Shown here one piece after another: positions 4,247-25,131 of a stretch of DNA of 64,000 nucleotides. The notes under the pieces are model-generated. The model did no database searches. It saw nothing but the letters and a program-made list of their open reading frames with translations, and was not told the origin of the DNA. Source of the stretch: Zopfochytrium polystomum (Eukaryota; Chytridiomycota; Chytridiomycetes; Chytridiales; Chytridiaceae); assembly GCA_025765615.1 (NCBI GenBank), contig JAIVFJ010000281.1, positions 1 to 64,000 of the forward strand. Reading direction: 5' to 3'. A program made the translations under genes and the position numbers. Numbering within the stretch: position 1 is the stretch's first letter; each line of letters begins with the position of its first letter.

Positions 4247-4262
4247 TGTGTGTGCGTGTGTG
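4214..4262. repeat. TG microsatellite at the 5' side of the DUF4246 gene
   Basis: About 20 TG units, partly interrupted, starting three bases upstream of the ATG on the minus strand. It lies in the presumed 5' UTR or promoter. Confidence 0.85.
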
Positions 4263-5520
4263 GAAAATATTAATCGCAGTCGTGAGCTTTTGCGGAGTCG
4301 CTGAAGAACGTTCGAGGGAGTGTGTGTGAAAGTGCGGTTTTGGGGAGTCATTGAACAAACTGCGCCACAGCTTGAACCACGGCGACGGAACGCGTGGGCG
4401 GAGCAGTGTGACGAGGGAGATTCCGGCCGTACCAGCAAGAGTGGGGGATAGACGAGGGATGGGCCGATGGTGAGGAAGCGGAGCATGGCGGTCTCAAGGC
4501 CGTTGCTGGTTGCGTCGCGCTCGAAAGTCCTCCGGCGTGGCCTTGAACTTGACGTCGTGATCGGTAAAAAGGTCTCGCCGTTCAAGCGAACTCAGTTTCA
4601 AACATCCAATGTATCATCCAGTGCTCCCACTGCATGCCGCCAGTCTCTTGCTGCTTCCATGTCGCTCTTGCTCGTGTCAGCCTGGAAGATCATACTGCGC
4701 TCGAAGGGTCCCTCCAACGCATCCACACAGCATCCATTGCAGCCTCAATCCGAGATAAAGCACACTTCACCCCTGTTCGCCCCATCCCAACTGATTGGAA
4801 ACATTTTACCCCACCTTCAGGCGAACGAATATCCCAAAGCAAGGTCAAGCAGCGTTGCAAGGCTGACGGCAAATCTATGTCTCCCCATCACTAAGACAGT
4901 CCCCCACTCAACCATACCCTCTCGCTCCAACCTGCTTGATATGTCGCAAGCCAGTCAGCCAACCTTTTCACAGGCGATGTTCCCAGACCTGCCGCCCAAC
5001 ACCCCCCCCCTCCCCCAACGATGGAAGAAGTCTCTGCCTTCATGGAACGGACAAACGTGATACGCAAGTTGCATGGTGACAAGCATGACTACAGTGTGGC
5101 TGAGATCGACGGCCTCAAAGGGCACAGCGACTCTCTTAATGCGACTATTAAGGAGAAAGATGAATGCATCTGTGAGTTGGAGTCCGATATCCTTCTGCTT
5201 CAGATGGACTGCGCTGCATCTGGTGGCGCTGAGGGTGAGGGAGGCGGCGTGGGTGGCAGCGGCGCCGACCGATGCAAGCCCCTGGCTCACATCAACAACC
5301 ATGACGACTGAGATTTCAAGGAGCAGGAAGTAGAGCGCCTGTGTCGCAGTAAGGGGGGGCAGCTCTGCCCACCATCCCGCGTCTCAGAGTGCGCCCACCA
5401 ACACCCAAAGGAGGTTGGCCAAGTCTCTTGAGGATTAAGCAGAATCTGCACCTGCTAAATTTTGCTGCAACTGTTACACTGCGTGGTCCCAAGCCCGTTC
5501 ATCCCAGCCCATCCTGCCTC
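4263..5520. other. unassigned interval, possibly old mobile-element sequence
   Basis: No gene I can support. An open frame at 5021-5311 (+) has a Glu/Lys-rich, coiled-coil-like stretch followed by Gly/Glu repeats, but its start context and homology are unclear. The right end is the integration site of LTR copy A. The same disrupted sequence resumes at 8732, where a LINE reverse-transcriptase fragment begins, so part of this interval may belong to that older LINE. Confidence 0.4.
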
Positions 5521-5525
5521 CCCGC

Positions 5526-5888
5526 TGTCAGGAACAGGGCAGGACAGGACAAGGCAGACAAGGAACTGAGAGGAGTGATGATTGTATTGGAAACAATAAT
5601 TCACTTGAGGGATGGGACAGGTCCCCCATCCCCCTTTTATACCTTTTGAGAGTCTTCCTTGTCAAGACTCAAAGAAGGTTCCAGAAAGAGCAATTAGTAA
5701 TACAATGATACCAATGATACCAATGACAACAAGACAAGTCAGGAAAGCAAAGAAGGTTCCAGAAGGTTCCTCAAGGTTCCATGAAGGAATGTTCTAGAAG
5801 GTTCCAGAAGGTTCCAGAAGGTTCCACAAGGTTCCATGAAGGAATGTTCTAGAAGGTTCCAGAGGTTTCCAGAGGGTGATTCATAACA
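5526..5888 (-). repeat. 3' LTR of copy A
   Basis: 363 bp, TG...CA ends. Contains the tandem GGTTCCAGAA / GGAATGTTCT repeat region and a TATA box. The polypurine tract lies immediately inside at 5889-5904 (AAAAGGGGGAGATGA on the minus strand). Confidence 0.92.
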
Positions 5889-7484
5889 TCATCTCCCCCT
5901 TTTAGGCCTCTTCTGCAACTTGGTGGGGTACCTGGTCTTGAACTTGAGTAGAAGGTCTTGGCAGTGAGTGAGGTTTGACTCAGGTTCCCAGGTGTTTTCA
6001 GCATCTGAGTAACCTTTCCACTTAACAAGGAACTTGAGTGTCCTTCCAAACCACTTGGCATCCAAGATTTGTTCAACCTCAAATTCCTCTTCACCTTCTA
6101 CCTCAACTGGAGGAGGAGGAGGAACAACTCTGCCTGGAATGGAATTGGCCACAAACTTCTCCAAAAGGCTGACATGGAAAACTGGGTGGATCTTCATGGA
6201 TGCAGGGAGATCCAGCTTGAAGGTGACTGGATTGATTTGCTCCAAGATCTTGAAAGGTCCCAACTTGAGGTTGTCCAGCTTGGGACTTGGTCTTTTGGTC
6301 TGCAAGTTCTTCCTCATGCCTCGCCAGTAAAAGTCCCTGGAAACAAGCTTATATGTCTTGTGCTCTCCTGGGTGTCCAGCTGTTGCTGCATCATGCCTTG
6401 TCTTGAGTATCTCAAGTTTTTCCTCTTCTTGGCTGATTTGAATCTTGTGAGGCTTGGGGTCCTTGGAAATAGCATAGGCCCACACACTCTCAGGAAGCAG
6501 TGAAAGGTGTGTCTTGGATGGTGGGGTGAAACCATCTCCCCCTTCAGGTGCAAGGTCTGTCCTTCTGTGCTCATCAGCAGTGGGGCTTGAATTGTTGACT
6601 GGGAACTGTGATTCTTGAATCTTTGACTGAGGGTTCTGTTCTTGGCAAAGACTGTGAGCTGTGGAGCTTGAATCTTGAATTTGGACTGTGAACTGTGGTA
6701 CTTGAATCTTTGACTGTGGGTTCTGTGAACTACAGACTTGGCCATGACTGTGAGCTCTATGAGCTGTCCTGGAATCTTGACTATGAACTGTGAACTGTGA
6801 AACTTGAATCTTGGCTGGGATCTGTGAGCTGTAGGCTGATACTGGAGCTGTCATTTGTCTTTGACCTTGGATACTAGGCTGAGAACCTTGAATCAGGGAC
6901 TTGAGAGAATGAGACTTGGAGGCTTCACTTGAGTTTTGGGTGACTGTTCCAATTGGTGGAGGTTGGACTTGACCAGTGACCCAATCAATGGCAGGGTTCT
7001 GGGCTTGCAGCCATGGTAATCCCAGGATGACAGAGAATGTGGGTGAGCCAAGATCCAATACTTCCAGATTGACCATGGATGGTGGAAAGTCTTGGATGTG
7101 GAGGTTTAGCTTGGTTTCATGGCTGATTTCCTTGAACAGAGCATGATTGGCAAAGTGGACCTTGAGGGGTGTGGATTTCTTGATCGTAGGAATGGCACAA
7201 GACTTGGCAAGGGTGGCATCAATGATGTTGCAGGATGATCCAGAGTCTATAAGGGCCTTGGTTGTGATGGTTGACTTGGGTGAGAGTTGAATCTTGACAT
7301 CCATGGTGAGTTGGTGGGGCTTGGAATCTGAGGTGTTTGTGGTGCTGGTGGTGGTGATGAAACAGGGGCAGCTTGGAGGAGGGTCCAGGGAATTGCCCCT
7401 CAGTGAGCCTGGACCTGGGAGTTTGGGTGCTTCTTCCTTGGGCAGTCCTTGACAGCATGCTCCTTGGAGCCACAGTAAAAACAC
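5889..7484 (-). CDS. shortened Pol of copy A: protease plus chromodomain, RT/RNase H/integrase core missing
   Basis: Open for about 531 codons from a GTG at 7484 that is unlikely to be a true start; entry is expected by -1 frameshifting from Gag. In order: an aspartic protease region with the ALIDSGSSCNIID active-site motif (~residues 77-89) and VILGLPWLQ; a Ser/Gln-rich degenerate repeat linker; a remnant of the integrase HHCC region (HDAATAGHPGEHKTY); a chromovirus C-terminal GPF-like segment; and a chromodomain (VEQILDAKWFGRTLKFLVKW, then GY and TWEPESNL) near residues 470-515. The first deletion joins the linker to the post-RNase H segment at about 6567. The second lies within an 8-bp direct repeat CTTCCTCA at 6309-6316. 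Both keep the frame. The stop codon TGA overlaps the polypurine tract. The translation matches those of copies C and D. Confidence 0.85.
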   Translation of the reverse strand: MFLLWLQGACCQGLPKEEAPKLPGPGSLRGNSLDPPPSCPCFITTTSTTNTSDSKPHQLTMDVKIQLSPKSTITTKALIDSGSSCNIIDATLAKSCAIPTIKKSTPLKVHFANHALFKEISHETKLNLHIQDFPPSMVNLEVLDLGSPTFSVILGLPWLQAQNPAIDWVTGQVQPPPIGTVTQNSSEASKSHSLKSLIQGSQPSIQGQRQMTAPVSAYSSQIPAKIQVSQFTVHSQDSRTAHRAHSHGQVCSSQNPQSKIQVPQFTVQIQDSSSTAHSLCQEQNPQSKIQESQFPVNNSSPTADEHRRTDLAPEGGDGFTPPSKTHLSLLPESVWAYAISKDPKPHKIQISQEEEKLEILKTRHDAATAGHPGEHKTYKLVSRDFYWRGMRKNLQTKRPSPKLDNLKLGPFKILEQINPVTFKLDLPASMKIHPVFHVSLLEKFVANSIPGRVVPPPPPVEVEGEEEFEVEQILDAKWFGRTLKFLVKWKGYSDAENTWEPESNLTHCQDLLLKFKTRYPTKLQKRPKRGR

Positions 7485-8323
7485 AGTCCCTGCTGGGCCC
7501 TCCTTGTTTTCTCCTCTTGGCTCAGAGGACCCTTAGGAAGTGTCTCAACTGCATCCACTTGCATGGGTTCAGGAACTGTAAGAGCTTGAGGAACTGGGGT
7601 AGGTCTTGATGTAGTTCCTACTTGTCTTTGCTTCAGCCTCTTGGAGTAGAGTCTGTTGTCAATCTTGATGGCAAGGAGAATGTACTCTTCCAAGGTCTCA
7701 GGGATGTGCAGAGACTGGGAGAGCATGTCTTGGATAGACTCATGGGGACCATCATGGTACAGCTCCATCAGAGCTGCATCATTGTATCCAGAGTCTCTGG
7801 CTAGTTGCTTGAATTGGTTGGTGTAGGCCACACAAGATTGCTTTCCTTGCTTGATATGCTTGAGCTTGGATCTTGCTGTCCAAGATGCGTAGGGGTCACC
7901 AAAGGTAGCTTCCAGCCCCTCCCAGAGCTCTTGCAGGGTGGTGGGTGTGCTTGGGAGAGATCTGTACCATGATTGAGCTTGACCAGACAGGAGGGTGCTT
8001 GTGAAAAGAACCTTGACTTGCTCACTGGGAAATCTTGAAGGTTGGAGAAGGATGACATTCTCCACAGTGGCCATGAAGTTCCTAAGGTCTTTGGCCAGCC
8101 CAGTGAACTTGTCAGGGCTGGGAACCTTGGGCTCTCTTGCTTGGTTGGCTTGAGGCAGGGGAAGAGCTTGATGTTCTTGTTGGTGAAGTTGTTGTTGAAG
8201 CTGGTGCTGCTGGTGAAGGACTTGTTCTTGAAGTTGGTGTGTCTGTCTTGAGAGGGCTTGTAATTGGTCCATCAAGGCTTGGAAGGCAGTTGCATCAGGG
8301 AAGGTGTTGTTTGGGTCAGACAT
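7400..8323 (-). CDS. Gag polyprotein of copy A
   Basis: 307 residues from the ATG at 8323, 41 bp inside the 5' LTR. The N-terminal part is Gln/His-rich and coiled-coil-like (~residues 15-55). It is followed by a retrotransposon gag domain (LRNFMATVENVI ... GQAQSWYRSL ... WEGLEATFGDPY) and a single zinc knuckle CFYCGSKEHAVKDC near the C-terminus. Gag would form the virus-like particle and package RNA. The Pol frame overlaps the end of Gag in the -1 frame. Compared with Gag of B, C and D it has Pro for Leu in the DG[L/P]HESIQ segment. Confidence 0.9.
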   Translation of the reverse strand: MSDPNNTFPDATAFQALMDQLQALSRQTHQLQEQVLHQQHQLQQQLHQQEHQALPLPQANQAREPKVPSPDKFTGLAKDLRNFMATVENVILLQPSRFPSEQVKVLFTSTLLSGQAQSWYRSLPSTPTTLQELWEGLEATFGDPYASWTARSKLKHIKQGKQSCVAYTNQFKQLARDSGYNDAALMELYHDGPHESIQDMLSQSLHIPETLEEYILLAIKIDNRLYSKRLKQRQVGTTSRPTPVPQALTVPEPMQVDAVETLPKGPLSQEEKTRRAQQGLCFYCGSKEHAVKDCPRKKHPNSQVQAH

Positions 8324-8363
8324 GATGGCAGAGAGTAGTGGGAGAGGGTGAAGTGAATTATGA

Positions 8364-8726
8364 TGTCAGGAACAGGGCAGGACAGGACAAGGCAGACAAG
8401 GAACTGAGAGGAGTGATGATTGTATTGGAAACAATAATTCACTTGAGGGATGGGACAGGTCCCCCATCCCCCTTTTATACCTTTTGAGAGTCTTCCTTGT
8501 CAAGACTCAAAGAAGGTTCCAGAAAGAGCAATTAGTAATACAATGATACCAATGATACCAATGACAACAAGACAAGTCAGGAAAGCAAAGAAGGTTCCAG
8601 AAGGTTCCTCAAGGTTCCATGAAGGAATGTTCTAGAAGGTTCCAGAAGGTTCCAGAAGGTTCCACAAGGTTCCATGAAGGAATGTTCTAGAAGGTTCCAG
8701 AGGTTTCCAGAGGGTGATTCATAACA
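8364..8726 (-). repeat. 5' LTR of copy A
   Basis: 363 bp, same length as the 3' LTR. The heat-shock-element-like array is at about 8588-8710. An 11-nt primer-site match (AAGTGAATTAT on the plus strand) lies at 8351-8361, two bases inside this LTR. Confidence 0.92.
8588..8710 (-). promoter_or_regulatory. heat-shock-element-like array in U3 of the copy A LTR
   Basis: Repeated AGAAG-GTTCC-AGAAG-GTTCC and GGAAT-GTTCT-AGAAG-GTTCC blocks fit the HSF1 consensus of alternating nGAAn/nTTCn pentamers. They lie upstream (on the minus strand) of the TATA box at about 8473-8479. This places them where a heat-responsive promoter would need them. Response to heat is inferred. Confidence 0.7.
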
Positions 8727-8731
8727 CCCGC

Positions 8732-9116
8732 CGGCTTCGTTGCGGCGGCGGACGCAGCAGATATGCGGACCAAGTCTGCTCAACTGACAAGAGGATTTCT
8801 CCAAGGCATGGTTCTGTCACCTATGGTGTTTGATGTTGCCATCAACTCCTTGCCTCAAACACTGGCCATGTCTCTCAGGGACCACTAGCTGATATTAATG
8901 CAAAACCTCGCTGAATTCGCTGCTTTTGCTGATGACTCCTCCGTCTTTGCCAAGGATGAGAGAGTGCTTCAGAGAATGCTAGACAAGGTGCATGAGTGGT
9001 TCCTTGAGCAGGGAATGACATTTGCTGCCAAGAATTGTGTTGCAGTTTCAGCCAAGAAGAATTTGAAGCTGAAGGTGAATGGAGTGGAGATTCCCCAGGA
9101 GGAGTCCACGACCTAG
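8732..9116 (+). pseudogene. LINE reverse-transcriptase fragment
   Basis: The plus strand encodes a degenerate RT core: RGFLQGMVLSPMVFDVAI (motif B-like) at about 8794-8850, an in-frame TAG at 8886, then AAFADDSSVFAKDERVLQRM with the catalytic FADD motif, and a downstream VNGVEIPQEES segment typical of the RT thumb/connection. The stop and the lack of surrounding domains show it is a relic. Copy A is inserted immediately to its left, so the LINE pre-dates that insertion. It belongs to a different lineage from the LINE at 36.4-39.7 kb. Confidence 0.75.
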
Positions 9117-9158
9117 TTGGGCCTTGTGTGCACCTGCAGGGGTATTGCCTTTGAGGCT

Positions 9159-9214
9159 GTAAACAGTCTACTCTGAGTGAGTGAGTGGAAGGAGTGAATG
9201 AAGTGGAGATGTGT
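9159..9214 (+). repeat. dispersed repeat R1, copy a
   Basis: TGTAAACAGTCTACTCTGAG and the following GTGAGTGGAAGGAGTGAATG segment recur almost exactly at 21406-21463. It lies downstream of the LINE RT fragment, so it may be LINE 3'-end sequence. Confidence 0.75.
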
Positions 9215-9281
9215 GTTTGCGGGTGGTCCCAAACTTGGAGAGAAAAAGAAAAAACTCTGATATGAATTATTGATAGATAAA

Positions 9282-9470
9282 TGACTGGCACAGGGTAACA
9301 ACCTCTCCTATATTATCTGTTTGAGCAGAGGAGGAGGAAAACTGTTGACACCAGGTTTCCGTTCCACTTAATACTCGGAGTATTTGTCATCAGCGCAAGT
9401 CAGCGCCCAGGTCGGCACTGGCAGTGGCTCGCTCTCCCATGGGCATTTTGAGAACGATAACTGACAGTCA
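9282..9470 (+). repeat. dispersed repeat R2, copy a
   Basis: About 190 bp from GACTGGCACAGGG to AACTGACAGTCA, recurring with scattered substitutions at 23731-23922. R1 and R2 are in the same order and orientation at both sites, but separated by about 70 bp here and about 2.3 kb there. Confidence 0.8.
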
Positions 9471-9488
9471 TCAGGTGTGTCTCCCTTG

Positions 9489-9870
9489 AAAAGGCTTGAA
9501 ATTGGCCCATCAAGATTTGGAAGGCAGTTGCGTCAGGGAGGTGTTGCTTGGGTCAGACATGATGGCAGTGAGTAGTAGGAGAGGGTGAAGTGAATTATGA
9601 TGTCAGGAACATGGCAAGACAGGGCAAGGCAGACAAGGAACTGAGAAGAGTGATGCTTGTATTGTAAACTATAATTCACTTGAGGGATGGGACTTGTCCC
9701 CCATCCCCCCTTTATACCTTTTGAGAGTCTTTATTGTCAAGACTCGAAGAAAATTCGAGAAAGAACAATTAATAATACTATGATACCAATGATACCATTG
9801 ATACCAATGACAACAACGACAAGTCAGAAAGGCAAGGAAGGATCAGAAAGTTCCGCAAAGTCCCAGCTAG
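9489..9870 (-). mobile_element. truncated, diverged LTR-element remnant (5' LTR plus start of gag)
   Basis: 9489-9600 matches the beginning of the internal region: gag start MSDPSNT at the ATG at 9560 and the 11-nt primer-site match AAGTGAATTAT at 9588-9598. 9601 to about 9870 matches the LTR from TGTCAGGAAC through the TATA region and into a decayed GAA/TTC repeat region. It has many substitutions against copies A-D, so it is an older insertion. It ends about 95 bp beyond the stop codon of the large minus-strand gene and could supply that gene's 3' flank. Confidence 0.85.
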
Positions 9871-9965
9871 AGGGTCTGTACATGAACACAGTTTATTCAT
9901 CAGGAATTAACAGAGAAAAAACAGTCGCTTATGATCTCATCGTAGCGCTTGGCCGTCTTCAGCAT

Positions 9966-12900
9966 CTACTTGCGCCCTTTTTTCGCGCTTGAATTGACCG
10001 CAGCGGCCGGCTTGGGAACAGCGGTCGCCTGTTTTGTCGTTGCCGCTGCTGGTTTCAAAGGGGTCCCGCCCGCCTTTGACGTAACACCAGCCTTTGCCGT
10101 CTGCACGGCGGCCGCTGTCGAGGTTTTCTTGGAGCCGAAAAGAGCAGTGGATGGATCCTTTGCGCCGCTCTTGGCCGGTGCCTTACTCGGCGCCGTGCTG
10201 GCTGTGCCCTTCGCTCCCGCCCCACTCCTGGTCGCCGCACTGCCACCGTCCTTTGCCGCACCTTTCTTCTCCTGCCCGCCCGCCGCTCCACTTTTCGCCC
10301 CCGTCCCCGCTAGACCGTTTGTTGCCCTTGCGGCACCAACGCCACTCTTCACTCCAGCGGTGTTTGGAGGGACCGCCTTCCCGCCCTTTGCGGCTGTCCT
10401 GTCCGCCGCCGCCGCCGCTGTGGTCTTCGCATCCTTGGCGGATCCGGGTTGCCGTGGTGTGCTAACCTTGGGCGTCGTCGCTCCGCTCTTGGCGGTGCCG
10501 CCGGTCATTCCCGTCCCTGTCGCACCCACACCATTGCTCGTTTTCGGTGATTTGGCAGCCCCGGGTTTCGCTAAAGTGGTCGCCTTGGCTGTCGTTGCTG
10601 CGTTCTTTGCCTCTTTTCCTCCGATGGAACTCGCGGCCTTACCGGCTTTGGCGGGGCCAGCAGCACCGGATTTACCTGGCGTGTTCTTTGTTGCAGAGGC
10701 TGCCGTGCCAAGCTTCGACGGTGTGCTCTTGGAGTTGTTTTTCGCGGACGCCGCAGGGGCTTTGGATGCGGCAGCCGGGGTCTTTCCAGTGGTCCGGCCG
10801 GCGGAGGCGGCGGTCCCGCCTTTTACTGTCGCGTTCGCCTTTGCAGCCTTTGCCGTCTTGCCGCCATTTGTCGTCGTGACGGCCGTTGCAGCTGATTTGC
10901 TCGCCGCGGTGCCCTTTGCGGGCGACGCCTTGCCGCCCCCAGCCGTCGTGCCTGCGCTCTTGGCGGTTTTCGGCGTCGAGGCACCTTTCACTGTCGTGCT
11001 CGCTTTGGCACCCGTTGCCGTCTTGTCGCCACCTGCCGCCGTCGTAGACTTTGCAGTTGATGCCTGTCTGCTCGCTCCGGCGGGCACGATGCTTTTCTTC
11101 CCAGGAGTGTTCTTTGCCGCGGGGGCCGTGCCGGGCTTCGACGGTGCAGTCTTTGAGTCCTTTTTCGCAGGCGCCGCAGTGCCTTTGGATGCGGCTGCGG
11201 GGGTCTTCCCAGGCGTCCGGCCGGCTGGCACCGGGGCTCCCTTCTTCCCTCCTTTGCTTGAAAGCTCCGTCTTGCCGCCCTTCGCGGCCACCTTGCTCCC
11301 AGCCTTGTCGCCTCCAGCCGTCGTGCCAGCGCCCTTACCAGTTTTCGGAGACTTTGCCGTCCCGACTTTGGCAGGTGAGTTCGTCTTTGCAGCTTTCGCC
11401 GTCTTGCCGTCAACTGCCGCCGCCGAGGTCTTTGCGGACGATGCCTGTCTGCTTGCGGCGGCGGGCGCGCTGCTCTTCTTTCCAGCCGTGTTGTTTGCCC
11501 CCGGAGCAGCTTTGGCGGGTTTCGATGCTGCGGTCTTCGAGTCTTTTTTCGCAGACGCCACACCGCCTTTGGACGCGCCTGCGGGGGTCTTTCCAGGCGT
11601 CTTGGCGGTTTTCGGCGCCGTCTCACCTTTAGCTGGATCTTTCGCTGTTTTGCCGCCGACTGCTGTAGTGGCCGACTTTGCGGTCCCTTTGTTCGCCGCC
11701 GTGCCCTTTGCCGGTGGTGTTTTGGCCGTCTTGCCGCTGGCCGCGGTCGATCCGGCGCTCTTGGCGGTTTTTGGGGCTTTGGCCGTCCCGCCTTTAGCTG
11801 GTTCTTTCACGGTTTTGCCGCCGACTGGGGAAGCGGCCGCCTTTGCGGTCGCCTTGTTCGCCGCCGCTCCCTTTGCGGGTGTTGCTTTAACCGTCTTGCC
11901 GCTGGCCGCTGTCGACCCGGTGCCCTTGGCGGATTTCGGCGTTTTGGCCGCCCCGCCTTTACCTGGTTCTTTCACGGTTTTGCCGCCGACTGCGGAAGCG
12001 GCCGCCTTTGCGGTCGCCTTGTTCGCCGCCGCTCCCTTTGCGGGTGGTGTTTTAGGTGTCTTGCCACCCACCGTCGACGCTGCGCCCTTTGCAGTTTTCG
12101 GTGCTTTGGCCGACCCGCCTTTAGCTGGCTCTTTCGCCGTTTTGCCGCCAAGTGCTGTGGCGGCCGCCTTTGCGGTCGCCTTGTTCGCAGCCGAGGCCCC
12201 CGTTCCCTTTGCGGGTGATGTTTTGGTCGACCTGTCTTTTCCCACTGTCGGCCGTGCGCCCTTGGTCGACTTCGGCGTGTTGGTGGACCCGGCTTTCGCC
12301 GATGCTGAGTTCGCCTTTGCGGCCTTTGGCATTTTGCCGCCGCCGCCTATCGTCGCCCCGGCCTTTGCGGAAGAGGCACGCTTACTGGTTGCGACGGGCG
12401 CTTTGTCTTTCTTTGCCGGGGAACTCTTTCCTCCGGGACCGGTTGGTCCGGTTTTCGACGCTGCGCTCTTCGACTCTTTCGACTTTGCGGCAGCGGCGGG
12501 GGCTTTGCCAGCCGTGCGTCCGGCAGGGAGTACGGCCACCGGGGCTTTCTTCGCTTCTTTGCTTGTAAGGCCCGCCTTGCCGCCCTTTGCGGCCGCGTCT
12601 TTCTTCGCGGTGGGCGGCGTTTTAACCGTTTTGCCGGCGCCTGCTGCCGTTCTCGCGTTCTTGTCGACTTTCGCCGTCTTTCCTTTGCCCAGAGCGCTCG
12701 CCTTTGCGTCCGCCGTCCCTGCGGCCGCCTTAGCCGTCTTTCCGCCGCCCGCCGTCGTTGAACCCGCGGCCCTGCTGGCTTTTGGAACCTTGGCTGTCCC
12801 GGATTTCCCAGGAGCGACCGCTCTCGCGGTGGTAGCTCCGCTCTTCTGCCCTCCTGCGATGGCTGCTTTCGGCGTCGTGCTTCCCTTTGGCGGTTGCGCC

Positions 12901-15900
12901 TGCTTCGCCGTTTTCGCCGTTGGCAGGCTCTTCGACGTTGGACCCTTTGCCGTCGCTGCGGCTTTGCCGCCCTGCGCCGTCGTGGCGGCGTTCTGTTTAC
13001 TTGACTTGGCTGCGTCGGTCCCGGTCTTTGCAGACTTCGACGACGGAGTTCCCTTGGCGGTCTTTGCGGGCGCCACAGCGCCGGATTTCGCCGTTGCCTG
13101 GGTGTTCTTACCCGGGGCGGTGGCAGCAGGTTTCCTCGCCGCTGCACTCCGCGGCGTCGCGGCCGCACCAACCTTCTTCGCCGCCGTCGGACGCTTGCAC
13201 GCCGCGGCGGCACGTCGGTACAGCCCGCTGCCGTCTCGCCGTACCAAGGAGCAGCTGGCGCCGCTTGCGTCGGCCCCCGACGCGCCTTTCGCCGCGTTCC
13301 CCTTGATGGCTATTTGGAGGACAAACAGAGGATACCGGAGGCACGCCGTCAGGGGCTTTCGAACCCACGCACACCCTCCCCGGCCGCCTCTCTGTGGCCG
13401 AATCGGATTCACTCACCGTCCTGAAAGTACTTTGGCAGCTCCTCTGGATGCGGCGTCTTCTTCACTTCGGGCCACTCAAACTTCTTGTCCGACTTTGGCG
13501 GGCCCAGAATCTTGTTGATGGCCCCGTGCGTCCCCGCTGCTACGTTACTTTCAATGAGCCCCGCCGCCGCCGGCGACATGCCGTGCTTCCGCGCCCGGTC
13601 GCCGGCCGCCGCGCCCGCGTACGCTGCGACGCCGTTTTGGGCGGCCGCTGAGAGAAAAGGGGAGATGGGTTGGGGGCACGTTTTAGGAGACTTTTTGGAT
13701 GTCGGAGAACGAATCAATAAGACGAAGATTACTTCGGTAGTTCTCTTGCTTGTCCAGGCTCTGTGCTACCGTGTTCCAGCCCTTTTTCGCCGGCGGTTCG
13801 GCTTAGGGAAAGTTGAGTTTAGGTTTAAGTTGGTTTGGCGTCTTTTTTTTTTTTAATTTCTTGCTTACTTCCGTCCTTCTGGTTTGGAATCAGTTTGGTG
13901 TTCCCCTTGATCGCACCTGACACCGCACCCTTGACGATTTCTGGGCAGGCCCATAGCAAAATTAATTAATTCAAGGAACACTAATTGAAAAACAGAACCT
14001 TACGTGGGCCGTTGCCGTTCAAATCCTTAATCCGCTTACCCCCTTCGATGGCTCCGCCCACCGTGGCCACAGTGGCGGTGGTGGCGTCTCCGGCTGCAAG
14101 TTTTTTTTTGGACAAAAATTAGAATGTAGGATGGGAGGGAACGTTGGAGTCAGAGATCAGCTCTATCAGTCTTGGGCAGGCAGAAAAAGGAAAGCAAATA
14201 AAAGAGCAAATGCAAGATGAGATGAACTGACCAATGACGCCGACGCCGCCGTGCCCTACTAGCTTTTGGACGACTTTACCCGCGACAACGGGAGCCGCTT
14301 AAAACAGATGCAGAAGAAAACCGACCATGGTGTTAGCATCCCAGAGCAATGGACAAAAGAGATGAACGCGGAAGAAGGAAACCACCCCCAACGTACAGTT
14401 CTTTTCGGACGCTGGTACGTTCGCGTAATGCGACTTCATGTCGCCGGTGACCAAGTTCGTGACGCCCTTTGCCGCTGCTACCGCCGCGCCAGTGACGAGC
14501 TTGGATGCGCCGTGCTGCTGCGCAATGCCTTGCGCCGCCGCGCCGGCGGTGGCTGAAGCTCCCGCTCGAACAGCGTCTGGATTTTTTGGCGGGGGGGAAG
14601 GGGGGATGTTTGTGGAACAATAAGCGGGGTTTCAATTTTGGAAAGGCGAACACAGAAGGAGGAAAGAAAGTGAGGGAAACGAATGAAAAAAGGCAAGAGT
14701 CCGAACCTTCCAGCTTCTTATGGTCTCGAAGCTCCGCCGCCGTCGCCTTGAAACCCTCCTTGATCGGCCGCGAGACCGGTGCTGTACGGGGCAGGTAAGT
14801 AGGGTGTGAAGAAAATATGAGTTCCGTGCGGTAGTGCATTGGCCTTAAGTTTGAAAGGAAAACCACTTACAATTACCGAGCACCTTCGCGTCCGCCTCCA
14901 GCGCCCCGGCAAGCGCGCTTTTCGCGACATCTGCAAAGGCAAATCCTCCTTTCAGTATGTCGTTTTCATTTTTGGTTCCCTTGGCCCCCGTGGCGAAGTG
15001 AAACGGCGGGGCGGAAGGCTCATGTTACCTTTTCCTTTCTCGTTCTTTGCGTAGCTCTCCATGGCCCCCTCGGCGCCACCGATCGCCGCGGCCGTGCCGA
15101 GCTCGGCGGCTTTGCCAACTGTTTCCGAAAAAAAAAAAAATGAAAAAAGAAGTAGGATCAGTTCAAATGCCGAAAAAGCTGTAGAGATGCAGAAGAAACA
15201 ATGGGGGGAAAACACAACAAGACTTACCGGCAGGTCCGGCTGCGGCCCCAACGGCCTTCCCCACGGCCTTTGGAACGCCCTTGTCCACGATCACCTTTTC
15301 GCCAGCCCGAATCAGCGCTGCCGACTCTTCCGGACCCGCCTAAGGGGAGATAGTGGTGGGATTGGATGGACGTCTCAGCGCAAGGAGCGAGCCCTGCAAA
15401 CGCCCCCTCTTACCGCATCCTTGGCGTGCTTCACGGCGTCCCTCAGACCCTCTCCATTCAACGCTGATTTCGTGCCGGACTCGACGACGTCCTTGACGCC
15501 CTTCTGGACAATTGCTGGAGAGGAGGTTGAAAGGGGCTTTAGCAGGAACAAAGCGGAGGGACGGAGAGTTCTGGCTCACGTTTTGCCCCGGCCTTTTCGG
15601 CGACGAGACCCGCCGCGACTCCCGCGGCGCTGGCCGCCCCCGCTTTCGCTGCAGCTACAGAAAAGGCGCGGTGGTCAGTGGCGTTGAGTTGGTTTTGCTG
15701 GTCGACGCAGAAAGAGAAAAGGGGGAGCTCACTTTTGAATGACTCGTCACGGTGCAGGCTGGCCGACACTTTTTGGATCGGCTCCACGATCAGCGCCGTG
15801 TCCTTCTTGACCGCTTCCTTTGCTGGCGTCGTCAAAAAATAGTTTGTGAATAGTCGTTATTTAAAAGTCAAGTGAACTCCTCCAGGAGAATTCACCCGAG

Positions 15901-16985
15901 TAGTGCATTTTTTCTAGCAAAAAAAAGAAAGAAAAACGCAATCATACCTTTCTCGCCCCCAACCGCCTGCGCAACGGCGCCGGCCACCTTTGGCGCAGCC
16001 TTGGTCGCCGCGTCCACCGCCGCAAGTGCGACCGCCTTCTTACCGTCCGGGCCAAGCTGCAAAGAGTAGAAGTGAATGGTGGATTCTTTCTTGATTCTCT
16101 CTTTCTTACCGCCTCGCCCACATTCTCGGCGGTCTTTTGCCAGGTCTCGCCTTTTGCCTTTGACGTGACGAGCGCCTTAGTGCCGTCGTGGACCGCTTTT
16201 TGCAGCTTGGCTGCGCGTCGCATGGCGAGGGGTTTCCCAATAAGGTGGGGGCAAAAGCGTGTGAGACACGTAGGGAAAAAAACATGAAAAGGAAACACGA
16301 AAACATGGGGGAGTGGGAAGGAATAATAGATAGATTTTGTACTTACGGTCGGCGCCTTCGTGCTTTGCGACCGCCTTGGCCGTGCCGGCGACCAACTCAC
16401 CGCCCCCTTCGATCGCCGCGGCTGCGCAGTGAAAGAATTAATGGGGGTTGTGGAGAGAAAGAGAGAAACCGAGCGTTAGCCTGCGGGCCATTGTCCCCCC
16501 ACCTACGCACCCAATGCCTGCACACTCTCCCACGCTGAAAACGGTCACTCACCCTTCAGCCCGTGCCCGTGGACGACCTCCTTCCCGGCCGCCACGACCG
16601 CCGGCACAACGACGGGAGCGACGGACTTTGCGGCGTCCAGGACCGGGTGCTTTTCGCCCTTCTTGCCCTTTGCGCCGTCGATCGCCCCCTTGATCCCGTC
16701 GATCGCAATCTCTGCGATGCGTGTGCGGGTAATGCGTAAGTGTGTGCATGAATGACCGAAATAGAAAATTAGCCCAAAAGAAAAATACAAGGACCAAAAA
16801 AGAAAAAGGAAAAACCCAAGAAGAAGAAATAAAAAAATCCACCCACGCGTCTTGGTCTCGTCCTTGCCGTATCCGTCCATTACGCCGACCGCGCCCCCAA
16901 TCAGCGCGCCCGTCCCGGCTTTTGCGACGCTGCCAGCTTGAGGAATTCAGCGCCGGGCGTGTGTGTGTGTGTGTGTGTGTGTGTT

Positions 16986-17025
<40 letters not shown>

Positions 17026-19777
17026 TTCAAGAGGATACAAGTTAATGACGCTGCAGTTCCAGAAAGATAAAAAAAATAAAATAAAATAAAATAGAGGAAA
17101 GAGAATTACCAGCCGGTCCCGCGAGCCCCGTCACGACGCCGCCGACGATAGCCGGCGCGCCCTTCTGTCCAACGTGCTTTGTGCCGTCCTTGATGATCGC
17201 CACGCTCCCCTTGTCGCCCATCTACGCGGGGAAAACCACAAAAATTCGTCAACTCAAAAACGCTTCTCTGTCTCCGCAAATCAAAATCGCCCCTCACCGC
17301 TTCGGTGGCATGGTGCAGCGTCGCCCGGAGGCCCTCGTGGTGCTTCTCGGACTCTTTCAGCGAGGCCGCGGCCGCGGTGGCCGCCGCTCGCGTCTCGTCT
17401 TGGTGAAGGTTGCGATTAACGGAGCGAAAAGAACGACTGGAGATTGATCGATGGGTTGCACAAATTGTGCGCGCGCACAGACACACACATGCCCACAAAC
17501 GTACCAGACACATCCTTCTTCTTGGCTGTGCGGCGCGGGTGACGGGAACCGTCCGGTTATTTTTTTGGATCAGGGTTGGTTAGTGTTTCCAGCGACACCG
17601 CAAGAAAACAAAGGTCGGGGGGTTAGGATCGGACGACTCACCAACTTTCTGTGCGGCTGAAATGTAACCCTCGGTGATGCCGTCCTTGATTGCCTCTATA
17701 TATTTTTATTTATTTTTTTTTTTTTTTTTTTTTTTGGTTCAGGTGGTTGTGGGGGGAGGCCAGTTTGGAGGAAATATGGGTAACACTAAGAAAGCGATGT
17801 TCGAAGCTTGCAGTCTGCAGTCTTTAAAAATCTTACGTTTGAGGTGGCCGCCGTCGTGGAGCTCGTGCGCCGTCGTTTTCAGGCCGTCGCGAATGGGGTT
17901 ATCTGGCGTTGAGCACTGGTTAATAATGGGAGGGGGGGCGGAGGGGCGTACTTTTCTTAACGTTTTTCGCGTTGACCTCGAGTGCGCCCGCCAGGCCGTC
18001 TTTAGCGATTTCTGTGGGGACCAAATGGGCGATTTGTGTCAGTTAAACTCGCGTGATCACTGCGCGTAAGACAAGACCAAATTAGACAAGGACGATACGT
18101 GCGTTTCCCGTCGTGGTGCTCCTTCACGCCTTCGTAGACTCCTTCGACGGCGCCGATCGTGCCGGCGACGGCGTGCTTGGCGGCGGTGCCGGCTGTTCCT
18201 CGCCGTGGATTGGGGGGGGGGGGGGGGGAGTGGGGCCAGACTCGGTCACGTCAATCAAGTAATCAGCGAAAACACGAACCTAGACCCCCAGCGATGGTCG
18301 ACACGGCGGCCCCCGCGACTTTGGGCACGCCGCGCTCCACTGCAACCTTTGCGGCCTCTTTCGCCAGCGTCTTTGTGCCCTCCTTGCCGATCTGTCAATA
18401 ATGGGAGTAGGAGGGGGGAAAGTGAACGATGAGTGTCTTTCTTGAGCACGCTTTACTCACCGCGTGCTGCAAATGACTAGCGGCTTCGTCCAGGTTTTCG
18501 TGCTTCAGCGCCGACGAGGTGATGGACTCGACCGAGTCGTGCGCAACTTTTTGCAGAGGGACTGGGGATGGTGGTGCATAACAGCGTGTAATGAGGAGGC
18601 GAACACTCGTCAGCGTTGTAAAACTCACCGCTCGCACCGGCCTTCCCGGCGAGCCCTCCGGCCGCGACTCCAGCCAGGCTCGCGCCGCCGTCGATCGCGG
18701 CGGCTGAGATCGTTTTGATGAGTGGTGAGTGTGTGCGTGTGTATAAGAGAGTTGGTCCCCGCCCAACCACTACGACTACCACCACTACTCACTCTTGATC
18801 GAGTTCTGCTTCTGCAGGCTCGCCGACACCTTTTCGAGTGGCTCGGCCAGCGCGTTGACGCCGTCCTTGACCGTTTTCTTGGCTGGGAAGTGGGTTGATG
18901 CGAAAGAAGGAAGCGCAGCGTCGGGCGCCGTCGGGCGGCGTAGGGTTGAGTGCCGCAAAAAAGACAGGGTGGCGTTGTTTTTCCCATTTTGTTTGGTGTT
19001 TGTTTGTTTTTATGCGTGTTTTTTTTTTTTTTTTTTTTTTTTTGGTGGTTTTCATGCCGAGTTCGGAGGAAGAAAACTCACTGTTGTTAACACACCCATG
19101 TGCACGCACTACCACACCAGCGCTTGACGCTTCAACGGTTTGCCAAAGTGTGTTGTAGTTGTTGTTCATACTCTACACCCACCTTTCTCGTTCTTGATGG
19201 GCCCCGACAGCGCGTCGGCCGCGTCCGGCAGGAACGCGCGCCCTTCGTCGACGGCCCCGATCGCAATCTTGCGGTTCTCGTCCTTCTTGCGCTGCTTCTC
19301 GCCGGCGGCGGCCGCCCAGCCGACACCACCCCCTCCCTGCGGCAGGGGCAGGGGCGACGGCGCGCGGCGTCGGACGTCCACTGCCGCCGCTACCGCATGA
19401 GGTTGCTGCTGGAGCAGCGCCAATGGCGAGAGGGGCGGCGGCGGGGAGGGGGAGAAGGAGGTTGCCGGCACGGCGTCGGCGGCTGCGGCGGCTACGGCCT
19501 GCGCTTCTGCGAGCAGTGAAAGCAGGAGGAGGGCCGAGACGGGGGCGAGAAGGAGGGCGAGCGGGAGGAGAAGGAGGTGGAAAGGGTGCCGCCCGCGCCG
19601 CCCACGCCCTCGCCGCTGCTGCTGCTTGAGGCGGCCGAGACTGTGCCCACGGCGGCTCTTCTGGTAGTGAGTGAGGTCCACGACCGGGTCGACCAAACTG
19701 ACGGAGGTCTCGGCGGCCTCGCGGGTGGTGCCTGCGGCGGCGGCGGCGGCGACAACAGGGACGGCGACGGCCCGCAT
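9966..19777 (-). CDS. giant modular Ala/Gly/Lys-rich protein, about 30 exons, membrane anchor and H1-like tail
   Basis: Unrecognised family. I infer 30 exons totalling 6,591 nt (2,196 residues): 19183-19777, 18793-18882, 18629-18703, 18461-18561, 18286-18391, 18103-18192, 17952-18011, 17837-17902, 17642-17695, 17505-17525 (tentative), 17298-17398, 17110-17221, 16847-16936, 16553-16711, 16347-16421, 16110-16210, 15948-16056, 15733-15822, 15580-15654, 15414-15514, 15228-15339, 15029-15118, 14871-14930, 14707-14781, 14397-14576, 14232-14297, 14004-14093, 13869-13940, 13417-13647, 9966-13309. All junctions are GT-AG (one GC-AG) and keep frame. Exon 1 has one hydrophobic anchor (HPFHLLLLPLALLLAPVSAL, ~residues 63-90). 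The small exons encode 20-60-residue Ala/Gly-rich, probably helical modules such as EPLEKVSASL, GGAIEGG and GALEADAK. The last exon is Lys/Ala/Thr/Pro-rich like a histone H1 tail, with 165-bp internal repeats. Exon borders come from reading consensus sites; a few could shift. Localisation and function are unknown. Confidence 0.72.
11640..12220 (-). repeat. 165-bp internal coding repeats in the Lys/Ala-rich tail
   Basis: Near-identical stretches recur at a 165-bp offset, for example TTCTTTCACGGTTTTGCCG at 11802 and again at 11967. They encode about 55-residue units containing VGGKTVKEP and NKATAKAAAS. Looser copies extend on both sides. The period is a multiple of three, so copy number can change without breaking the frame. 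Confidence 0.75.
14871..18703 (-). repeat. recurrent exon tetrads (75-101-106/112-90 nt) in the giant gene
   Basis: The same order of exon lengths and phases recurs. 18629-18103 is 75/101/106/90; 17398-16847 is 101/112/90, with its leading member reduced or lost; 16421-15733 is 75/101/109/90; 15654-15029 is 75/101/112/90. Phases are 1-1, 1-0, 0-1, 1-1 each time. Two tetrads are followed by a 60-nt and a 66/75-nt exon (18011/17902 and 14930/14781). Encoded residues are similar at matching places: VSASLQKQ vs VSASLHRD, VERGVPKVAGA vs VDKGVPKAVGK, GALEVNAKN vs GALEADAKV. Confidence 0.75.
16960..17024. repeat. GT microsatellite plus poly(T) in an intron
   Basis: About 12 GT units followed by more than 35 T residues, inside an intron of the giant gene. 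Other intronic homopolymers are poly(T) at 17709-17735 and 19020-19042 and poly(G) at 18215-18228. Confidence 0.85.
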
Positions 19778-20079
19778 TGGTGCTGATTTCCCAAAACTTT
19801 TTTTGTAATTTTTTTTGTTATTTTTTTTTTTTTTATGCGACTAAAAATTTATATCCTCCTTTTCCTTTTTTTTCTCCTCTTTTTCTTTGCGCTTCTGCAA
19901 CTTTCCCGTTTTGGTTGATGGTCCAGTGAGCCGCTGAGTCGAGGCGATTGAGCGCCAAATTCCAGGGCGACCGAGAGACTGACTGCCCTGAGTTTTTCTC
20001 TGCCCATTGATTTGTCTTTAATCCGCCCGAAGTGTGCTCAGCCCTGCAAACACGCAGCAGACACACGCACATGCATACT

Positions 20080-20219
<140 letters not shown>

Positions 20220-20639
20220 ACATATTGCCCCCGCACAGACACGCTGCGAGCCCCAGCCACGCCTCCGAGGTCCGCCGGCCTAGGTTGATGCCGGACGCAT
20301 TCTCGTTTCCGCCGGCTGAGCCTCTAGCGCGCTAATTGGGCACGTTCCGACTGGCCGGTGGCGGATGTCGCGAGATAACAGAGGGCGAAGGACACTGACT
20401 GAGAAAGAGAGAGAGAGAGAGAGAGCGCGAGATCATGTGTGTGTGTGTGTGTGTGTGTGTTTGTACGTGCGAGTGTGGCTATTGAGCCAAGTGCGGCTTC
20501 CTCCATACGAAGAACAGTTGGAGTCTGCAAGTACGTCATCACGCTTTGTCTTCTCAAACAACCAATTCCTTGGCAACCTTGGATTGCCTTTTCCCTTCGT
20601 CTCCCATTTTCCGTTCCCTTCGTGGCATTCTTCCCCCCG

Positions 20640-21405
20640 CCCTTACATTAATACTTCGTAGGGGAAGCGCCGATCCCCCAGGGATTCGAACTACACCGTC
20701 GCCGTGGACAAAGAGTGCAATCGCTATTGTGTCGGTGAACCTTGGCGATCTGTCGCTGAGTGACGGAGAGGGAAGAAAAAAAAATACAATGTGTACCGCT
20801 TTTCCAATATCGATGCATATCGCGGGAAGGGGGGTGAACCAGTCCTTTACAAGACGCAGGCTCCGCTGATCCGTGCATTTGGTGAGGAATATGGCTATGA
20901 GCAAGGACTGAGAAGTGTATCCAAGAGAATTGAAATGGCGGTAATAACAATTCAATTATTGTCGCAAGATTTGACGATAATGCCGCTGAGAAGGATTTTT
21001 ACCTTACTTGGAGATTCATCCGTACCGTCCTAGGTTCACATTATAAAGTGTGGTGTAAAAATATCTGCGGTATTTAAACAATTAAGTAACGCTGGGAATA
21101 ATAATAGTGCTCCTGATCCTTGTGGTTTTATGACAGACTCTTGTTTTTGCAAATAAAATCCCTAGACTTTATCACTGAGACCTCATTGCAGTCTCACACC
21201 GGTACTGGAACAGCTTTTTCAGGTCCTGGATCAAGGGCACCAAAACAGAAAAAAAAACTGTTGCAGAGGAAAAAAAAACAACAAAGAGAGAAAAAAAAGG
21301 CAAAGCAACAGTTTCTTTTTTTTTTCACTTTTTTTTTGTCCCTGTATTGTCGCTGCAACCTGTGTGTACTGAGCCCACACCAGCCGGGATTCCCAGCCCA
21401 GTTCT
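20640..21405. other. unassigned interval
   Basis: Contains an 80-codon frame at 20791-21033 (+) of normal composition but no recognisable domain, and A-rich runs near 21245-21330. The segment at 20660-20770 read on the minus strand has a GTTCGAATC box and partly paired ends reminiscent of a tRNA, but the arms do not fold, so I do not call a tRNA. Confidence 0.35.
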
Positions 21406-23062
21406 TGTAAACAGCCTACTCTGAGTGAGTGAGTGGAAGGAGTGAATGAAGTGGAGATGTCTGTTATGAATAATTGATACACAACTAGGGGATGCCTGTC
21501 GACTTGTGAGCAATCCTTGCCAAAAAACATATAAAAAAAGGAAAGAAGAGAAAAAATGATTAAAGACAAAGCCTTCAATGGATATTGGTTGTCCCACACA
21601 CAGGCAATCTGTCCCTGGATTGAACGGAGAGTGGCATGCCACAATGAACATTGTGGCAGGCCAAGCAGAGAGTGACCAACAAAGCTTGGAGTGTTAGCCC
21701 CAAGCCACTGACACACTGACAGACAAAGGGGACAGAAAGAGAGAAGTCGCAGCCTTTCAGCACAGCCACACTGGCAAACCTGGAACCTCCAACAAACTCA
21801 GTGCTGCCCTTGCAGCCTTTGGCTGCTCATGCAACAACCCATTTGACTGCAACAGGAAGACTGACAGCCTGTTGAATGCAACAGTCAGCTGAGCACTGGC
21901 TCCAAAGTGCTCACAGAACCCAGAGGGAGAAACACAAACAGCCTGTTGACTTTAGTTCAAACAAAGAGGCAGTCATTGATTGATAGATAGACAACAGCCC
22001 GTTGACTTTGCAAAATCATTAACCGATATATCATTTCAGTTGGCTCCTCCTCCCAGTGACCCCAAGGAGGGGGGGCTGCAGCCTCCCCTCCACCCCTTGC
22101 TTCTCCTTTTGGGTTGGTTGCAAAACTTCAAAGAAGGGGAAAAGCAACATTCACACAAAGTTGGAGACACTGATGCACACTTTGGTCCCTTGAGTAGAGC
22201 AGCTTGCTTCAGAAGGAGACAGGCGGAGGGAGTGTTTTGAAGAGGTACCCTACAGCGCCTGTTAAGGCACAGACTGCAAAGAGACAGAGAGATAGATATC
22301 GAGACACACAGCCCATTGACTGCCACTCCCAGAGATAGGGAGATAGACAGACAACCCGTTGGCTGCCACTCTTATAGACAGACAGCCCGTTGACTTCATT
22401 CCATTTTTAGTTTTTAGAGCATGATTGAAATGCAAAAGAGAGAGAGTGAGAGAGAGAGGTTGGGAGGGAGGGAGGGAGGTGAGAGAATCTGGGTTGTTTT
22501 TTCTGTCAGGGGGCTCCCCACCCCCCTCCACCCCTGCTCAATCAATCAAGAGAGATAGAGAGAGAGAAAGAGACTTCTCACTTATCTATCCTGGCACCTT
22601 CCTGTGGTTGCGTCGAGTGGCTTGCAGCTGCCTTGTCTGATGGGTTGGTCTGCCTCCAATGAGATGGTCAGAGACGCCCCACCCCCAAGCGAGAAAGTAA
22701 CCAAGAACTGAAGGGAGGGCAGAGACAGAGACAGTGAAACAGATAGAGAGATAATGAAGAGACAGAGAGACAGAGGAAAATATGTTTTTGAGTCAGGGGG
22801 CTCCCGCCCCTGAGCCCCCTGGTGGGGGGGGCTGCCGCCCCCCCTCAACCCCCCTGCTCAAAAGAGAGGAGAGAGAGAGTGTGTGTGTGTGTGACAGAGA
22901 GAGAGAGAGCGAGAGACAGAAGGACAGGGAGAGAGAGAGAGAGAGAGTGAGAGTGAGAGAGAGAGAGACAGAGCGAAGAGATGGAGAGACAGACAGCCTG
23001 TTGACTGTCAGTCCCAGAGAGTGAGGGAGAGGGAGAGAGACAGAGAGAGAGAGAGAGAGAGG

Positions 23063-23107
<45 letters not shown>

Positions 23108-23922
23108 CGGGAGAGGGAGAGGGAGAGAGTGAAACAGGGAGAGAGACAGGGAGAGAGAGGGAGAGACAGAGTGAGAGACAGAGACAGAGAGACAGGGAGA
23201 GAAACTGAGAAAGAGAGACAGAGAGAGCGAAGCGATAGAGATACAGACAGAGAGACAGATAGCCCATTGACTGCCAGTCCTACAGACAGGGAGAGAGAGA
23301 AACAGGGAGAGAGAGAGAGTGAGTGAGAAAGGGAGAGAGGGAGAGAGACAGGGAGAGAGAGAGGGAGGGGAGAGAGAGACAGGGAGAGAAACAGAGAAGA
23401 GAGACAGAGAGACAGAGTGAGCGACAGAGGCAGAGAGACAGAGAGAGAGACAGAACAAAGAGATAGAAAGGCAGACAGAGAGACAGACAGCCCACTGACT
23501 GCCAGTCCTACAAACAGGGAGATAGACAGACAATCTGATAGACAGACAACGCATTGAGCTCCTTCCTTTTCCGATTTTTCTGCCGAGTTTTGATTGGGCA
23601 CCAAAGACAAAAAATTAAACCCCCCCCCCTGCTCCACTAATTGCAATTAGAAAATCAGTTTAGCCGCAAATCCTTGTTTTTTTTATTATATAGGTGATGA
23701 TATGCACGCTGTAATAGTTGCTAGGCAAGCGTGACTGGCACAGGGTAAAAAACCTCTCCTATATTATCTGCTTGAGCAGAGGAGGAGGAAAACTGTGAAC
23801 ACCAGGTTCCCGTTCCACTTAATACTTGGAGTATTTGTCAACAGTGAAAGCCAGCACCTGGGTCTGCATTGGCGGTGGCTTGCTCTCCCATGGGCATCGT
23901 GAGAACGATAACTGACAGTCAC
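21406..23922 (+). repeat. 2.5-kb repeat region bounded by R1b and R2b
   Basis: Begins with R1 (21406-21463) and ends with R2 (23731-23922), both also found at 9.16-9.47 kb. The interior holds GA/GACA-rich sequence (about 22425-23480), inside which a roughly 25-bp unit with core ACAGCCCATTGACTGCCAGT recurs: near 21945, 21990, 22305, 22350, 22380, 22990, 23250, 23487 and 23545. No coding capacity is recognisable. It may be a non-autonomous element or a LINE 3' region expanded by minisatellite growth. Confidence 0.6.
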
Positions 23923-24126
23923 AATAGGTTCGACTGCTAACCAGTCAGTTCTGCCTAACAGTTCTGATCCAAATCCTCAGACTTTCTTAATGGTCTGAAT
24001 CTTCACGCCTGAGGAGGCCCAGAAAGAAGTTGGGAACAGTGCACAGAGCACCATCGGTGTGTACTAGTCGTGAAGGAGGGTTTCAAGCAAACAATAATAC
24101 ATAGAGTGCACCAATCCCGATCAGTG

Positions 24127-24239
24127 GCTCTGGTGGCTTAGTTGGTTAAAGCGTCGGTCTCATATACATGACGCACCTGGTCGCCCAGGTGCACCACTCA
24201 GGTATCCGAAGGTCGTGAGTTCGATTCTCACCCAGAGCA
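24127..24239 (+). tRNA. tRNA-Met (CAT), intron-containing
   Basis: Exons 24127-24164 and 24204-24239. Acceptor GCTCTGG pairs with CCAGAGC and the discriminator is A. The D-arm is GCTTAGTTGGTTAAAGC, the anticodon loop is CTCATA(A) with anticodon CAT at 24161-24163, and the T-arm is GTGAG-TTCGATT-CTCAC. The TCGGT/TCCGA anticodon stem with a T-T pair is typical of elongator tRNA-Met. The intron (24165-24203, 39 nt) follows position 37 as expected and can form a GCACCTGG/CCAGGTGC hairpin. Confidence 0.93.
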
Positions 24240-25131
24240 CTCATCCAGCATTTGCTGTTTTATCGGAGTACTTTCTTCGAAGGTGGAATGGTAATTCTGC
24301 ACAGACATATGGTGCGAAGATTTTTCCCCTAGCGAGGCACATGGGGGCACACAGGGGAGGTGCGCTCACCACCGCTCCTCCACTGGCTTTGGGTCAGCTG
24401 CCAAAGCTGCCAAAGGTGGCCGCTTTCAGTGAGGACGCACAGACTGGGCTGTGCCATCACCACTTAGCTACTACACGACAAAAAGGCCCTTTTTGTCACG
24501 AATAGCGAAATTGTATTGATTTGGAACTGAGCTAGAGCTGCTCCACCTCCATTCTCAGCAGAGCTCCTCATTCTGCCTCCAAAGACCTCCTGTTGAATCT
24601 GGTTTGTTGTTTGCAGAACTTCAGCACACACAGAAAACCCCTCTGGTTGAAGAAGCACTTTTGAGCTCCTAACCATTGGTGAGATGGCTGGCTAAAGTCC
24701 TGCCAATGGTGGCAAACGTTGCAAAGAACATAATGCTTGCCATTGATTGGCAACAGGATGGGTACTTGAATGACAACGCCAAGCAACAGAGGGTGCTGGT
24801 TGTTTCGTGGTAAAATAGACGACTTCCACCTGTGGGAGATAGGATCAGCCCTGGGTTCAGTTCCCAGTCAGCGCATTGGTAGGACAAGGCTGCACACTTC
24901 TGATTGCTCTCACAATTGAACTTGGAAGATCTTCATGCGATCTGCACTGCGATTGGTGTCACTGTGCTGACAGTGATGGTTGTGTCTGAGCACACAGTTT
25001 GCCTGTGTTCACGCATCTCTGTTGTTTGCTTGCTCCTACAGTCAAGCTGATTATAAATGTTCTTGTGGATGGTAGAGTTTGATGCATGATTGGCTGCAGC
25101 CATCTTGCAGATATGCTTTGCACTCGTGCTG
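24240..25131. other. unassigned interval between tRNA-Met and the LTR array
   Basis: No supported gene. Only short frames of ordinary composition occur on both strands, and none carries a recognisable motif. The last five bases before the array (25132-25136, GCACT) are the target-site duplication. Confidence 0.5.

Follow-up and report, generated by a model that had tools for sequence, protein, structure and literature searches.

What kind of process builds a gene from many small exons, nearly all of them joined in phase 1, in a genome that looks fungal? Patthy (PMC8001218) states that there is practically no evidence outside animals for modular proteins made by exon shuffling, and the same source poses the question of why class 1-1 modules dominate. 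An initial annotation of our window (the whole 64,000-nucleotide stretch of DNA analysed) had read the interval 9966-19777 as one modular gene made by such shuffling. Among the papers listed by our literature searches, no title or abstract opening describes a gene of this kind.

We rebuilt the exon model from splice sites and open frames, curating by hand from two automatic models and the open frames. The first automatic model came from dynamic programming with generic splice weights, and the automatic models already repeated exon sizes of 75, 101, 112 and 90 nt. The result is a single gene on the minus strand (19777-9966) with 31 exons, a CDS of 6,666 nt and one terminal stop, encoding 2,221 amino acids. 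Each of the 30 introns has a terminal AG; the donor is GT in 29 of them and GC in one, after E6 (donor after 18103), a site that is also GC in a second copy of the gene on contig C398 and GT in the prediction for a third on contig C11. In this gene alone, 26 of the 30 junctions are phase 1, in line with the initial annotation, and four are phase 0. Just 60-112 nt long are 24 of the 29 internal exons. The region gave a gene-model score of 914, compared with 176 on the opposite strand and at most 111 in dinucleotide shuffles (56 of 60 gave a model); the scorer was trained on the window gene, so its 914 alone is not independent. It recovers 28 of the 30 non-tail exons of this gene, on which its intron cost had been chosen. 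Together the exon model and the C398 and C11 copies, which serve as two independent tests, bear out a single gene, and we consider it almost certain that the gene itself is real.

The repeating unit consists of six exons of 75, 101, 112, 90, 60 and 66 nt. Upstream of the units, all on the minus strand, lie E1 (595 nt, 19183..19777), which carries the start, a basic stretch, a hydrophobic segment at residues 68-86 and a Pro/Ala linker, and E2 (18793..18882), a 90-nt module termed 90a that resembles E18 (z 11.2). Unit 1 (E3-E8, 17837..18703) comprises 18703-18629 (75), 18561-18461 (101), 18391-18280 (112), 18192-18103 (90, with the GC donor), 18011-17952 (60) and 17902-17837 (66). Unit 2 (E9-E14, 16553..17695) has its 75 split as 54+21 (E9, 17695-17642; E10, 17525-17505), followed by 17398-17298 (101), 17221-17110 (112), 16936-16847 (90) and 16711-16553 (159); we read this last exon, E14, as a fused 60-type and 66-type. 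Unit 3 (E15-E17, 15948..16421) is short, with 16421-16347 (75), 16210-16110 (101) and 16056-15948 (109) and no 90. A second 90a module, E18 (15733..15822), then precedes unit 4 as E2 precedes unit 1. Unit 4 (E19-E24, 14707..15654) is complete: 15654-15580 (75), 15514-15414 (101), 15339-15228 (112), 15118-15029 (90), 14930-14871 (60) and 14781-14707 (75, of the 66-type). Unit 5 (E25-E29, 13733..14576) is altered, with 14576-14397 (180), 14297-14232 (66), 14093-14004 (90), 13940-13869 (72) and 13801-13733 (69); here we read E25 as fused 75+101 and E26 as a shortened 112. E30 (231 nt, 13417..13647) has a 75-like start and then a Pro-rich end, ...LPKYFQD. The final exon, E31 (3,344 nt including the stop, 9966..13309), opens with the junction motif CSLVRRDGSGLYRRAAAACK and continues for ~1,080 residues of K/A/T/G/S/P low complexity ending in ...GRK (stop 9966-9968). 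All five units, E18 and E30 are each supported by the model, by the module comparison and by the C398 and C11 copies.

The initial annotation had counted three full sets and one shortened one, which is close: we count four 75-101-112(109) sets (E3-E6, E9-E13, E15-E17 and E19-E22), and beyond these a fifth with fused 75+101 and a 112 cut to 66, as well as the 75-like start of E30. The 60 and 66/75 exons follow the sets twice, as described earlier (E7-E8 and E23-E24), with variants in E14 and E25-E29. All four phase-0 junctions lie inside a unit, where a 101 exon meets a 112(109) exon. Neither the 101 nor the 112 exon is symmetric, so a copy or loss that preserves the frame has to involve both, and they are always paired in the four sets that have them. 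Unit 5 has no phase-0 junction, because the 75 and 101 are fused and the 112 is cut to 66.

We then compared the modules with one another. Twenty-four of 28 modules (E9 and E10 joined) were classed by length and order, with E14, E25, E26 and E30 left out. Global alignment gave a mean z of 4.8 in 31 same-class pairs versus 0.63 in 245 different-class pairs (Mann-Whitney p ~1e-16, the pairs not being independent). Some same-class pairs are weak (E13-E27, z 0.6; E3 versus E9+10 and E17-E21, z 1.8), and a few pairs are strong across classes (such as E2-E29, z 5.5). Module boundaries coincide with exon boundaries by the exon model, class similarity and both further copies. These data uphold the earlier suggestion of a duplicated unit whose ends are exon ends.

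The genome searched for further copies comprises 80.16 Mb in 761 contigs, with the window on contig C281. The second copy, on C398, aligns without gaps in 29 of 29 internal exons (E2-E30), where 94% of aligned columns are identical (2,552/2,727), whereas the introns show 380 gapped columns and 86% identity in the aligned columns (2,468/2,869). Splice dinucleotides lie at the same positions, and the C398 CDS has one stop and encodes 2,292 amino acids. Its E1 has the same total length, yet aligns with 60 gapped columns, and the tails differ by 213 nt. Substitutions between the two copies number 137, 112 and 212 at codon positions 1, 2 and 3, each of 2,211 positions, and dN/dS is 0.33 in E2-E30, 0.59 in E1 and 0.60 in the tail. 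The repeats are thus under selection against amino-acid change, and E1 and the tail are weakly constrained given their values. Similarity between the two contigs spans about 9877-20752 of the window, and the C398 flanks (5000-24990 and 40000-48091) share just three 78-90-base pieces with the window. The C398 copy may be a paralogue or a diverged haplotype, and duplicate or haplotype contigs seem to have been retained in the assembly.

A deeper paralogue on C11 shows 61% identity over 889 aligned repeat residues. For its automatic prediction, the splice weights were derived and the intron cost was chosen on the window gene, and the codon weights came from that gene and its C398 copy. In this prediction, 26 of the 29 internal exons have the lengths of their window counterparts, in the same order. 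Shuffled C11 sequence (47 of 60 gave a model) matched 1.3 exon lengths on average and four at most; the score was 454, against a shuffle maximum of 78. Direct reading of two exons (66 and 75 nt) with the expected splice sites raises the number of kept lengths to 28 of 29. In place of E14 the prediction has two exons (90 and 66 nt), and the tail exon is longer, at 4,604 nt. The C11 protein analysed here is the automatic prediction, in which E1 is split in two and the E8 and E24 exons are shortened. Directly downstream of the full C11 copy lies a partial one (C11:141370-139658, minus strand), running from about a 112-type exon as far as E30 and interrupted by stops within its E30-like match. Contigs C7 and C343 hold pieces matching E1-E18, with the E2-like piece in two frames and, in the stretch from the E5-like to the E8-like piece, nothing that matches E6 or E7. 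Beyond E18 they show weak module matches alone and then, ~9 kb on, a low-complexity stretch with 24-32% identity to the tail (E 1e-11 to 1e-19) that we did not count as a copy. Free-running gene prediction on C7 and C343 gave no believable gene, and these loci are apparently degenerate, truncated copies.

To order the duplications, we built a tree of four units of the three genes, using their 75-101-112 part. The copies of unit 1 from the different genes fall into a single group (support 84/90), and so do those of unit 2 and those of unit 3 (both starred); overall, none of 200 label shuffles scored as low for grouping by position. Unit 4 does not form one clade, doing so in 6% of bootstrap trees. 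Same-position units of C11 and the other genes share a mean identity of 0.59 (eight comparisons), compared with 0.36 for different units within one gene (18 comparisons). These sequences indicate that, at least for units 1-3, unit duplication came before gene duplication, and that the units have not been homogenised. The family grew by intragenic duplication of a six-exon unit of class 1-1, bounded on either side by phase-1 junctions. In our reconstruction of the order of events, unit duplication was followed by loss, truncation, fusion of exons and gain of introns, and the whole gene was probably copied later than its units.

Whether modules also moved between genes is a separate matter. When the genome was searched with four queries, namely the tail, E1, unit 4 and the E24-E30 part of C11 (units 2 and 3 not among them), modules were found only in this family, on C281, C398, C11 (two copies), C7 and C343, these counts being lower bounds. 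Since the modules were found in this family alone, what the data demonstrate is intragenic unit duplication only, and the exon shuffling between genes proposed in the initial annotation is not borne out. A match of E19 on contig C517 (E 1e-4 to 3e-4) was lost once composition was adjusted for, and a reversed control gave E 0.001; E1 has weak matches on C35, C68 and elsewhere (E 0.006-0.03).

What might the protein do? Because no homologue was found outside this genome, its proposed function draws on composition and periodicity. The hydrophobic N-terminal segment, which follows the basic stretch of E1, is present in all three full-length copies (KD 2.69 here and 3.52 in C11), and may be an anchor or a cleaved signal peptide. 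The repeat part (~910 residues) contains 20% Ala, 13% Gly and 12% Lys and is weakly basic. Its hydrophobicity recurs every 4.0 residues (90 degrees), with z 8.0 here and 9.7 in C11. The tail has no 90-degree signal (z 0.1), but its z rises to 4.1 at the 120-degree edge of the scan. Its 1,113 residues are 27% Ala, 17% Lys, 14% Gly and 13% Thr, with a net charge of +183. Each of the three full-length copies has exactly two cysteines, both within CSL-[VA]-RRDGSGLYRR...ACK where the tail begins, and all three end in GRK. Single-sequence AlphaFold2 predictions, made without an alignment, are mostly helical for both exons modelled: E25 forms one long helix (mean pLDDT 77.6, pTM 0.47) and E30 two longer helices and a short one (mean pLDDT 77.3, pTM 0.53). 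The repeats hold 23 GxxxG motifs versus 15.8 expected (30 of 1,000 shuffles as high). Glycine-zipper helices carry this motif too; the repeats differ from them in having no glycine-zipper Pfam match and only two stretches above KD 1.4, the higher at 1.72.

We propose that the protein enters the secretory pathway through its N-terminal segment and is then either anchored by that segment or released. The repeats would form a long chain of short alpha-helices packing on an Ala/Gly seam with the four-residue period, the two cysteines at the border of repeats and tail may pair as a disulfide, and the disordered basic tail could bind polyanions of the wall, the matrix, nucleic acid or a membrane surface. 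We assign a probability of roughly 45% to this account as a whole, that of a unit-duplicated gene family encoding a secreted or anchored helical scaffold, with a structural role, and a polyanion-binding tail.

The best-surviving alternative, which we regard as unlikely, is an intracellular stress or lipid-surface protein of the LEA, perilipin or synuclein type, with 11-residue amphipathic helices. Such 11-mer helices are rich in Ala, Lys and Gly, helix-prone and repetitive; the repeats are likewise, with 'KDG' motifs alike by eye and helices predicted for E25 and E30. However, the signal at 98 degrees, the 11/3 period, is weaker (z 4.1; C11, 5.3) than that of the four-residue period, Pfam gives no match up to E 10, and the hydrophobic N-terminal segment in three copies does not suit such a protein.

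Still less probable is a chromatin or nuclear protein with an H1-like tail, as the initial annotation called it. The C-terminal tail of linker histone H1 is basic and rich in K, A, P, S and T, with (S/T)PxK sites, and the present tail resembles it in composition and in having 11 [ST]PxK sites in 1,113 residues. The likeness ends with composition: Pfam has no linker-histone or globular-domain match up to E 10, Lys makes up just 16.8%, the hydrophobic segment at the opposite end argues against a nuclear histone, and exactly two conserved cysteines would suit an oxidising compartment.

Very improbable is a split into two genes, one for a repeat protein that would end near 13417 and another for the low-complexity tail, as might be suggested by the tail being one long open frame (9966-13412) that starts with GTG. 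The E30-E31 junction is in phase in C281 and C398 (with an intron of 107 nt in both) and in C11, and its flanking YFQD-[AV]IK and CSL motifs are conserved. The fusion to a basic tail that the initial annotation described is therefore supported by a splice junction shared by all three copies. That the recurring exon lengths arose by chance during model building in Ala/Gly-rich DNA is hardly credible: the window model was hand-curated and the scorer trained on it, but the C11 prediction beats its shuffles, all C398 internal exons align without an indel, and modules are similar within classes.

We also searched for relatives of the family. Pfam has no match for the repeats, the tail or E1 up to E 10, and the sole match among PDB sequences (E 0.12) was taken as chance. 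In a set of 5.8 billion proteins, with scoring limited in each search to some 8,000 candidates that shared the most words, there was no relative of the 910-residue repeat part at E 1e-5, of region 199-1140 of the full protein at E 1 or of a six-unit alignment at E 0.01. Pattern searches gave 30 matches in prokaryote genomes and 22 in viral contigs, none confirmed. No relative of the family was found in these collections, in keeping with the initial annotation. This absence is weak evidence, because only those ~8,000 candidates were scored and the share of spliced eukaryotic proteins in the collections is uncertain. Intron-blind gene finding would miss internal exons this small, which may explain why the family has gone unseen.

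The gene resembles animal class 1-1 modular proteins in that module ends are exon ends, a phase-1-flanked unit was copied without a frame shift and the product is possibly extracellular. It differs from them in that its modules were found inside one family only, by duplication rather than shuffling between genes, its unit is six small helix-like exons rather than one folded domain, and its host is probably fungal. The gene shows a first step, with a module copied along phase-1 introns in a fungal-looking genome. Its events can be ordered: units were duplicated first and whole genes copied last, and between the two came intron gain and the fusion or splitting of exons. The gene lets one ask whether the restriction to animals comes from mechanism or from selection. 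At somewhat short of even odds, we suggest that in a flagellated fungus a large protein, probably extracellular, arose independently by repeated duplication of a symmetric multi-exon unit with phase-1 ends, a mode described as practically restricted to animals, and that it founded a new family of short-helix repeats with a four-residue small-residue seam. Its interest lies mainly in the gene's construction in a probable fungus and in a family without a relative in the searched collections.

The host itself looks fungal, as had been proposed. IFT20 is present in the genome (best E 3.8e-15; no match in 14 control genomes), and chitin synthase gives 70 matches, exon pieces counted separately (best E 2.4e-177). 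The chitin-synthase model also matches four of the 14 control genomes, all bacterial, so these matches support a fungus without proving it; a flagellated fungus is the natural reading of the two together. Chitin-synthase matches with equal scores occur on the contig pairs C7/C343, C47/C144 and C58/C256.

Elsewhere in the window, a Ty3-type element (25490-30048, minus strand) has a gag frame and a long pol frame that includes a chromodomain (Pfam on the long pol). Three shorter Ty3-type copies (5889-8323, 30397-32831 and 33180-35614, minus strand) share a 531-residue pol remnant, as though a single form with an internal deletion had multiplied; a gag frame is found at 7400-8323 (Pfam). Overlapping open frames at 36664-39427 (plus strand) resemble a LINE-type reverse transcriptase and RNase H by eye, and the frame at 37787-39424 (plus strand) has no Pfam match. 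Ankyrin-repeat frames and an F-box/WD40 frame lie at 52553-58754 (minus strand), and a DUF4246 protein is encoded at 2595-4358 (minus strand).
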